Of a stretch of DNA of 64,000 nt, positions 14,124 through 15,842 are shown in pieces. Position 1 is the stretch's first letter. The number at the start of each line of letters is the position of its first letter. Source of the DNA: Methylacidimicrobium sp. B4 (GTDB lineage: Bacteria; Verrucomicrobiota; Verrucomicrobiia; Methylacidiphilales; Methylacidiphilaceae); contig NZ_CP066203.1 of the NCBI RefSeq assembly GCF_017310545.1, positions 1,240,001 through 1,304,000 on the forward strand, in the 5' to 3' direction. Position numbers and translations under genes: made by a program. The notes below the pieces were generated by a model. It searched no databases. It was not told the origin of the DNA and saw only the letters and a list, made by a program, of their open reading frames with translations.

Positions 14124-14786
14124 TCAGACGCCAAAGAACTTCGGCATCAGGAGACGCAAGAGCAGGATCGCGGAGCATCCGGCAAAGAAGCCGATCGCTA
14201 GCAGCAAGCCCACGGCCCAAAGGCGAAGGCCGGTAAGGCGCTTCTGCAGGGTCCGACTCTGCTCCGTGATCTGTGAAACCAGCCCGGTCAGTTGCGAGGT
14301 CTCCTGCTGTAATCGCTCTTGCCACTGCTGGGACGAGGAACCCAGAAGATCCTGCAGCTGGCCGGTGTAGTGGTGCATCTGCTCGCTGACCTGCGCAAGA
14401 AGGGAGGAGAGCTGCGAGGTCTCCTGCTGCAACCGCTCTTGCCACCGCTGAGGCGAGGAACTCAGGAGATCCTGCAGTTGAGTCGTGTAGTGGTGCAGAT
14501 ATCCCAGGAACTGCTGCAAATCGTCCTGGCTGGAGGCCGCGCCAGCAGCATGGCTCGAGGTGCGTTCCAGAAGCTCCTGTACCGCACGCGGCACGCGCTC
14601 CAGATAGGCGGCATTGGCTTCGAGGAGAAGCAACAACCCACTGAGGCTGTCGAAAGAATGAGCGGGCTCGGACCGGCTTTGGTACCACTCCCAGGCAGCT
14701 TCCCTCTTTTCCGGCGGGAGATGGGCGATCGCAGCCTTCCAATACCGCCGCGGATCTGCAGGTTCCTCCGCCTCCGGGTCATTCAT
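14124..14786 (-). CDS. Coiled-coil, C-terminally membrane-anchored protein with a 40-residue tandem repeat
   Basis: A 220-aa protein of unknown function. Residues 1-75 are acidic and helical. Residues about 90-175 contain two near-identical 40-residue units (HHYTTQLQDLLSSSPQRWQE and HHYTGQLQDLLGSSSQQWQE, each continuing RLQQETSQL). They are Gln/Leu-rich and should form a long coiled coil. A single transmembrane helix lies near residues 187-213 (LWAVGLLLAIGFFAGCSAILL), so the rod would project from the inner face of the membrane. The start overlaps the stop of the upstream ATPase gene by 4 bases, so the two products probably act together. Similar coiled-coil membrane proteins accompany TraL/StbB-type ATPases on plasmids, but homology is not shown. 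Confidence 0.75.
   Translation of the reverse strand: MNDPEAEEPADPRRYWKAAIAHLPPEKREAAWEWYQSRSEPAHSFDSLSGLLLLLEANAAYLERVPRAVQELLERTSSHAAGAASSQDDLQQFLGYLHHYTTQLQDLLSSSPQRWQERLQQETSQLSSLLAQVSEQMHHYTGQLQDLLGSSSQQWQERLQQETSQLTGLVSQITEQSRTLQKRLTGLRLWAVGLLLAIGFFAGCSAILLLRLLMPKFFGV
14291..14498. repeat. Tandem duplication with 120-bp period inside the coiled-coil gene
   Basis: Bases 14291-14376 align with 14411-14496 at an offset of exactly 120 bases, with about 13 differences over 86 positions by eye. The period equals 40 codons, so the duplication is in frame and lengthens the coiled coil. Similarity fades gradually at both ends. Confidence 0.85.
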
Positions 14787-15613
14787 AGAAGATTTTGCAG
14801 ATTCACCTTCCCTCCTCGCCGAGCTCCCGGTCGTTCCTGCTCGTGATCGGGTGATGAGGGTGCAGTCCGCTCGATCTTTTCCGCCTCTTCGCCAGCTAAA
14901 AGAGAAAGGGCGGCACGATCATACCGGCCGAAAAGCAGCCGCAGCCAATCTTCCAGAATGATTCGATGGATCAGATCGAGCTTCACCTCTGGATCGACAA
15001 CGGCCTGCACCGGAGTGATCACCCGCTGTAATCCGATCTCCAGGGCGGCCAGTGCATCCTTGGTGTCAGCAAGCAGTGCTGGCAGCTCGAGAGTTACCGC
15101 ACCCAACGAAAGCAGCTCCTTCTCAAGATCGCTACCCTCGAACATGCGAATGCGGGGAATTCGAGCGCGATTCCGTACGATTGCATAGTCCGCCTGACTA
15201 CCCACTCGCTCCACCACTTCCGCGATCTCGTCCATCACCGCGAGATCATCCATTGGATAAAAGAGGATGGTGACCCGGGTATCCGGCTCTCTGCCGGTGT
15301 ATTGGAAAAAGCGCACGGCTTCCAAGGAGCGCAGCAGAACGCGAGAGAGATGCGCTCGCGGATCGATCAGGGTAAGGGGCGTCTCCGGGATCCCGCGAAA
15401 AAGGCGGATCAGATCGGTCTCTGGCTCCTCGGAGAGTTCGATCAACTGAACACCCGGCACGGCCTTCGATAAGGTTCGATTGTCCGAATCGAGATCAAAT
15501 GCCCGCCACGATAGTCCTCGCGCTGACATCCACCCCAGACGCGCAATCGCCTCCAAGGATTTGCCCACATTGCCCTTGCTCTGAATCGGAACGGTCACTC
15601 GATGCTTGATCAT
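14783..15613 (-). CDS. ParA/MinD-superfamily P-loop ATPase, TraL/StbB-like
   Basis: A 276-aa protein beginning with VTVPIQSKGNVGKSLEAIA. This is a deviant Walker A motif (SKGNVGKS, residues 12-19) of the ParA/MinD class, with the KG-x-VGKS form seen in plasmid TraL, MobB or StbB proteins. LTLIDPRAH (about residue 83) occupies the Walker A' position. The C-terminal 40 residues are charged and look disordered. It is cotranscribed with the membrane-anchored coiled-coil gene. No partition sites, relaxase or replication genes lie in the window, so a plasmid-type function is not supported by context. A positioning or membrane-scaffold ATPase is a reasonable alternative. Confidence 0.75.
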   Translation of the reverse strand: MIKHRVTVPIQSKGNVGKSLEAIARLGWMSARGLSWRAFDLDSDNRTLSKAVPGVQLIELSEEPETDLIRLFRGIPETPLTLIDPRAHLSRVLLRSLEAVRFFQYTGREPDTRVTILFYPMDDLAVMDEIAEVVERVGSQADYAIVRNRARIPRIRMFEGSDLEKELLSLGAVTLELPALLADTKDALAALEIGLQRVITPVQAVVDPEVKLDLIHRIILEDWLRLLFGRYDRAALSLLAGEEAEKIERTAPSSPDHEQERPGARRGGKVNLQNLL

Positions 15614-15842
15614 GGGTTAGCTGATTCTCCAGAAAGAAACGGATGGGAAGGTCGAGCCGATCCGCATCACGCCATCGCTCAAATTAATTTTCCCCCTGAT
15701 CGGGAGAACCGGATCCTGAAATGAGGAACGATCGTCGTCAATCGGATTTTTCGGCAGCTTGCTCGGAGTGAAGGGAAGCGGTTCCCCGCCACAGGGCGGC
15801 TGGGGTAATCGCGTCTCGAGGTGCCGGTCTTGCTCGGCGACA

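Follow-up and report, generated by a model that had tools for sequence, protein, structure and literature searches.

The window, by which we mean the whole stretch of 64,000 nucleotides analysed here, covers positions 1,240,001-1,304,000 of a single 2,371,269-bp contig, and the gene pair it contains is thus chromosomal, as the preliminary description of this DNA had held. The pair consists of an ATPase gene with the motif SKGNVGKS followed by a gene for a helical rod protein, and both open reading frames, as well as their overlap by 4 bases through a shared ATGA, were found exactly as previously described. The features, in window positions, are as follows.

14783..15613, minus strand: ATPase of the TraL/StbB group within the ParA/MinD superfamily, 276 aa (open reading frame and homology)
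15557..15580, minus strand: deviant Walker A motif SKGNVGKS, residues 12-19 (alignment of 20 homologues)
14786..14803, minus strand: ATPase C-terminal tail NLQNLL, a candidate docking motif (conserved end in the alignment)
14124..14786, minus strand: helical rod protein with one predicted C-terminal membrane helix, 220 aa, in StbC/TraM position
14783..14786, minus strand: ATGA stop/start overlap of the ATPase and rod genes
14258..14377, minus strand: rod repeat, C-terminus-proximal copy, 40 aa
14378..14497, minus strand: rod repeat, N-terminus-proximal copy, 40 aa, 79% identical
14157..14213, minus strand: predicted single transmembrane helix of the rod, residues 192-210
15736..15741, minus strand: promoter-like -35 TTGACG, the same in 6/6 aligned Methylacidimicrobium loci (consensus match only)
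15713..15718, minus strand: promoter-like -10 CAGGAT (CACGAT in other loci), 17 bp from the -35 (consensus match only)

The ATPase carries IQSKGNVGKS at residues 10-19, and the columns that are invariant over 20 homologues include G14, G17, K18, S19, D40, D42, and D84. K13 is the signature lysine of the deviant Walker A motif (KGGxGK[S/T]-like) by which membership of the superfamily is recognised. The protein ends in a (V/I)NLxN(L/I) pattern common to its orthologues and to mobile-element relatives (L048-L050), with N271, L272, and N274 invariant over 14 ATPase sequences, and this NLxNL tail is a candidate docking motif. A sequence search of the PDB returned 0 matches. The structure model reached a mean pLDDT of 57.7, with most 10-residue blocks of residues 1-180 at 57-84 (an earlier model from five near-identical rows gave 34), and resembled ParF (Z 14.4, rmsd 3.2, 187 aligned), MipZ (Z 13.7, rmsd 3.4, 202 aligned), and McdA (Z 12.2, rmsd 3.5, 193 aligned), with 7-22% sequence identity among the 50 matches listed. 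With moderate confidence, and bearing in mind that two ParA-like rows in the model's alignment may favour such an outcome, we assign the ATPase a ParA-type P-loop alpha/beta fold, the kind of fold on which the preliminary description depended.

The rod protein has one strong hydrophobic stretch, residues 192-210, which lies 10 residues from the C-terminus (Kyte-Doolittle 2.50; next best 1.06), includes a conserved G199-x3-G203, and agrees with the single terminal membrane helix proposed earlier. The proposed coiled-coil rod held up as a helical rod but not as a coiled coil: the periodicity of its hydrophobic residues is strongest at 3.60-3.64 residues and next to nil at the heptad value of 3.5, and its best Pfam matches, all below cut-offs, include an apolipoprotein family. 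Because of this period and this match, the protein is better read as a putative hendecad-like amphipathic rod. It also contains a 40-residue tandem duplication (120 nt per copy; the 79% identity is at the DNA level), whose copies are 94% identical in L040 and 71% identical in L041; the Methylacidiphilum rods have no second copy. The range of 71-94% across species suggests homogenisation of the repeat.

A promoter-like block (TTGACG-17-CA[GC]GAT) precedes the pair in all six aligned Methylacidimicrobium loci. The neighbours of the pair include an Rrf2 regulator and an upstream protein without a Pfam match, neither of which matched ParB models, and a gene that we take to encode an aminopeptidase (LAP). 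The statement that no relaxase is present was borne out, as 0/14 protein queries, covering relaxase, coupling protein, T4SS, the StbA-position HTH, and a second TraL-like gene, matched within the 64-kb window at E<=1e-3. Neither an Rfam scan nor a tRNA scan of the window gave a hit; since the tRNA scan was empty, the window holds no tRNA attachment site.

Conservation and selection in Methylacidiphilaceae

Homologues of the ATPase were found at E<=0.001 in 20 of 60 related genomes. Four named records contain a relative at 83-91% identity; they come from two Methylacidimicrobium species, a MAG of the Methylacidiphilaceae, and "Verrucomicrobia bacterium LP2A". Methylacidiphilaceae are acidophilic methane oxidisers, and 11 of the family's 13 genomes carry an orthologue at this one locus, namely 6/7 that we assign to Methylacidimicrobium (the window's included) and 5/5 that we assign to Methylacidiphilum; the orthologues are chromosomal and not confined to plasmids, a result that favours the preliminary description. 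The remaining Methylacidimicrobium genome (G003) has nothing closer than a homologue of 29% identity; the contig there breaks off within the upstream gene, and the missing orthologue may reflect an assembly gap. No orthologue was found in G008, which represents a third genus of the family, nor was a clean empty site, as the aminopeptidase is kept there in a different neighbourhood.

The order of aminopeptidase (LAP), upstream secreted protein, ATPase, and rod is kept in 11/11 loci, and the Rrf2 side could be seen in 10 of these, the contig ending in the other. The four-base overlap is the same in 10/10 orthologous loci, so the pairing is not due to chance, and the reading frames are intact in all 11 genomes with an orthologue. 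For the ATPase, dN/dS was 0.055-0.124 over 15 Methylacidimicrobium pairs and 0.033-0.101 over 7 of 10 Methylacidiphilum pairs (3 saturated pairs omitted); for the rod, it was 0.109-0.207 over 15 Methylacidimicrobium pairs and 0.066-0.104 over 4 of 10 Methylacidiphilum pairs (6 saturated pairs omitted). Both genes are under clear purifying selection (overall dN/dS 0.03-0.21). Judged by its conservation, the pair is a functional operon, vertically inherited. The earlier suggestion that the pair may be a fixed plasmid remnant was right, but the word "remnant" undersells two genes that selection maintains.

Relatives in mobile elements and plasmid systems

More distant homologues in related Verrucomicrobiota (22-40% identity) form pairs of the same layout inside mobile elements. 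We fetched 26 divergent loci for neighbourhood scoring, and a MOBF (TrwC) relaxase was found by 20 of them (the matches at L052, L054, L055, and L057, in the SGRIGKS group, being weak at 24-30% identity), a StbA-position HTH gene by 20, and a coupling protein by 12. Pfam searches on the examples tested gave E 5e-75 and 1.5e-73 for TrwC and 2.4e-7 for TraG-D_C. The usual order has the relaxase divergent from HTH-ATPase-rod(-coupling protein). The six loci without a relaxase match comprise four where the ATPase lies near a contig end (L053, L056, L058, L059), one on a 4.6-kb contig (L051), and one with a coupling protein and HTH (L032). The relaxase families searched were TrwC and PF03432, the TrwC search covering 9 of the 13 Methylacidiphilaceae genomes, and G019 (loci L037 and L060) is the one of five matching survey genomes outside Methylacidiphilaceae that was scored for relaxase context. 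In 34/35 loci, the ATPase gene is followed by an open reading frame of 120 aa or more whose start lies from -14 to +3 relative to the ATPase stop, and at -4 in 27, in a count that keeps L028, whose "rod" frame runs into the coupling protein (no proper rod), and leaves out the ATPase of L037, which belongs to the 26 divergent loci.

The closest non-orthologous ATPases, those of L048-L050, are 38-39% identical to the window ATPase over its full length including the C-terminal tail. In the unrooted ATPase tree, the orphans fall with element-borne copies in a 23-row clade (support 100/99), and the union of the 11 orphans in a clade of their own lacks firm support (48/17); given the unrooted tree and this weak grouping, the direction and number of captures are what we infer. 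The ATPases of L052-L059 carry SGRIGKS, which does not have the lysine that marks deviant Walker A sequences, and are followed by larger rod proteins. MOBF relaxase genes also occur within two Methylacidimicrobium genomes, at G002:C124 (L088) and G006:C82 (L087), the former accompanied by a TraL-like ATPase of its own and, close by, a coupling protein.

The TraL/StbB relationship proposed in the preliminary description was upheld through these relatives, which adjoin MOBF relaxases. The window ATPase itself had no match to the TraL (PRK13886) or StbB (NF041292) model at E<=1. A relative, the L035 ATPase, matched NCBIfam TraL at E 8.1e-10, below the 360-bit cut-off, and is one member of a TraL-like group whose profile aligned with that of the window clade over 232 columns (probability 99.9%, E 2e-33). 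Full-length homology to TraL is thus established via intermediates, short of the direct model cut-off, and the link is weaker because it has no direct TraL/StbB match and goes through those intermediates. Though short of the model cut-offs, the pair resembles TraL-TraM and, judged by the homology of its ATPase, comes from the same stock. IncN-type StbB was ruled out as the nearest family, as the profile comparison aligned the P-loop alone (13 columns). The rod had no sequence match to StbC (NF041291) or TraM (PF11657, PRK13895) among the matches listed (best 25 of 32 and best 25 of 26), and what it shares with these proteins is layout: it is helical, has a single predicted C-terminal membrane helix, and is encoded directly after the ATPase. 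Its similarity to TraL-linked rods is weak (E 9e-7) and may be helped by composition, and homology was not significant to the closest element-borne rods (L048-L050) or to the SGRIGKS-group rods. As far as sequence and layout tell, the pair is a TraL/StbB-type ATPase with a partner in TraM/StbC position, and is thereby related to genes with which plasmids direct their DNA to the membrane when it is to be transferred.

Several known systems resemble the pair to different degrees. TraL-TraM of IncP-type plasmids (PRK13886/PRK13895) likewise consists of a ParA-type ATPase followed by a C-terminally membrane-anchored helical protein, and in a viral-collection contig (L098) a clear TraL (1.7e-70) is encoded ahead of a TraM-like protein (2.4e-5) whose C-terminal segment is hydrophobic; the window ATPase, however, is longer, ends in the conserved NLxNL tail, and has neither relaxosome neighbours nor a reportable TraL match. 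A scan of the viral collection with the window clade found no relative. In StbABC of R388/R46, an ATPase gene again precedes a gene for a helical C-terminal-anchor protein, and the R46 order (mobF, stbA, stbB, stbC) resembles that of the element-borne relatives, with their upstream HTH gene and divergent MOBF relaxase; but the window ATPase aligns with StbB at the P-loop only, the window has no StbA, and StbC shows no detectable sequence relation to the TraL-linked rods. The MOBF elements at L048-L050 have the same 4-base overlap, and differ from the window in that a TrwC relaxase and HTH adjoin and the rod protein bears an extra domain of ~94 residues after the membrane helix; an open reading frame downstream in L049 is presumably recombinase-like. 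The positioning ATPases ParA/ParF, MipZ, and McdA appear to share the fold of the window ATPase, but no known cargo gene is adjacent to the pair.

A study of R388 (PMC3098194) reports that StbB is required for the formation of plasmid foci close to the polar membrane and, if StbA is also present, for conjugation, describes no effect of StbC deletion, lists RP4 TraL within the StbB family, and treats StbB/TraL ATPases as components of the modules for plasmid transfer. The location typical of such modules, beside a relaxase and a StbA/TraK-like gene, was seen in 0/11 orthologous loci, and relaxase, StbA-position HTH, and coupling protein were each found in 0/11 syntenic loci (10 orthologous loci and the window). 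Our literature search, outside whose coverage most subscription papers lay, found no paper on a chromosomal TraL/StbB pair in Methylacidiphilaceae.

A type IV secretion island and a second orphan fragment

Methylacidimicrobium and Methylacidiphilum have a chromosomal type IV secretion island in common, at ~337-388 kb of G000:C1 (L163, L154, L164) and ~1,333-1,376 kb of G007 (L165, L156, L166), which we compared along its length in one genome of each genus and partly in others. It encodes VirB4/TraC-like, TrbI/VirB10, VirD4-like, and ParB-like proteins, a GspE/PilB-type ATPase, and sigma-factor-like frames; matches in G007 include TraC-F (1.1e-38), TrbI (4.3e-19), T2SSE (2.6e-84), and CD1115-type VirD4 (4.9e-15), and the VirB4-like protein of G000 is 69% identical to that of G007 over 869 aa. 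The coupling-protein family PF02534 occurs in 11 of the 13 Methylacidiphilaceae genomes. PF03135 occurs in 0/13, from which a family without T4SS might be concluded; this is wrong, as the models that recognise the VirB4-like ATPase of the island are PF19044 and TraC-F. No TrwC and no PF03432 (MOBP) relaxase was found in G000. A previous report (PMC6688271) describes, at one common position in three strains of Methylacidiphilum, a putative integrated plasmid of ~45 kb, which is apparently the island seen here; because Methylacidimicrobium has it too, the island would be older than that report states. Pair and island are both present in the two genera and both absent from G008, a coincidence that may be, and probably is, the outcome of one event.

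A second orphan fragment, at G000:C1:408804-410216 (L107:5805-7217), consists of an HTH gene (HTH2) followed by a TraL-like ATPase gene (ATPase2, KGGVGKT), with no rod. It is syntenic in 6/7 Methylacidimicrobium genomes, as found by a search with the element's HTH gene, and is flanked by what we take to be fabH/plsX-like and purF-like genes. HTH2 is 35-41% identical to the closest element's HTH, MOBF relaxases adjoin 4 of the 5 related loci found in other genomes, and no HTH relative was found in the five Methylacidiphilum genomes.

Origin and possible roles of the pair

We consider it probable, if some way from certain, that the pair belonged to the "Stb" module in the leading region of a MOBF mobile element, has since been domesticated, and positions a cargo at the membrane. 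It would have been kept after the loss of transfer genes, and it is neither plasmid debris nor a new kind of system; to call it an undescribed membrane-linked positioning system, as was done earlier, overstated its novelty, since the layout is that of plasmid stbB-stbC (R46) and TraL-TraM (L098). Because the surrounding plasmid genes are gone yet selection preserves the pair, it probably does a new job for the cell. Identity and origin are well supported, and the mechanism we infer would run as follows. The common ancestor of Methylacidimicrobium and Methylacidiphilum would have captured the pair from an element and lost the rest. The rod would sit in the inner membrane by its C-terminal helix, with its amphipathic part in the cytoplasm, and an ATP-bound ATPase dimer would dock on it, perhaps via the NLxNL tail; by analogy, the rod would thus anchor the ATPase, which would carry a DNA-protein or protein cargo to the membrane and release it upon hydrolysis. 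Since the original client (relaxosome and coupling protein) is absent nearby, the present client would be the family's secretion island or another host cargo.

That the pair is functionless plasmid DNA in decay is scarcely credible: the lack of transfer genes around the orthologues would suit it, but the dN/dS values already contradict it, as do intact frames in 11/11 genomes and the conserved overlap and promoter-like block. The domestication reading also has a sharper version in which the client is named, the pair being a detached working part of the secretion island that steers DNA or protein substrates to it. This we hold only tentatively. PF02534 is absent from G008, which also has no pair, the island is annotated in G007 with its VirB4-like counterpart in G000, and 12/26 element-borne loci have a coupling protein close to the pair. 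The shared distribution, however, is probably one phylogenetic event and not independent evidence; pair and island lie ~0.87 Mb apart in G000, G006 (140 contigs) has the pair and no PF02534 match, the coupling protein of the island is no more than a remote relative of the element-borne ones (22% over 200 aa), and the absence of TrwC and MOBP relaxases from G000 also weighs against it.

It is somewhat more doubtful that secretion is uninvolved and that the pair positions a host cargo, such as a chromosome region or a cell-surface or metabolic structure, like other dispersed ParA/MinD ATPases. Purifying selection at a locus without transfer genes, the pair's own conserved promoter-like block, and the probable ParA-type fold are consistent with this, but the neighbours (the Rrf2 regulator, the Pfam-less protein, and the aminopeptidase) include no cargo candidate. 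A split Stb system, in which HTH2 supplies the missing StbA-like DNA adaptor to the pair in Methylacidimicrobium, seems quite improbable: the synteny of the second fragment, the resemblance of HTH2 to the element's HTH, and the MOBF relaxases beside related loci would fit, but Methylacidiphilum keeps the pair without any HTH relative, and by eye the two operons share no upstream repeats. A broader proposal, unlikely on present evidence, is that Methylacidiphilaceae turned an ancient conjugative element into a host system, in which dispersed Stb-type parts (the ATPase and rod here, HTH2 and ATPase2 elsewhere) would serve the chromosomal T4SS island in trans, in genomes without a detected MOBF or MOBP relaxase, and would place DNA or protein at the membrane to be released or secreted.

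On the favoured reading of a domesticated Stb piece, a pair kept by selection in two genera without the module would set the basic activity of ATPase and rod apart from conjugation and would illustrate the conversion of a positioning device of plasmids into one of the host, with the old secretion island as a concrete possible client. TraL-like ATPases also occur singly in the family. ATPase2 has a counterpart in G008 (59% identity), where a lone TraL-like ATPase lies at G008:C1:253913-254578 (L130), and Methylacidiphilum has another at G007:C1:645013-645702 (L131), present in G009-G012 as well.
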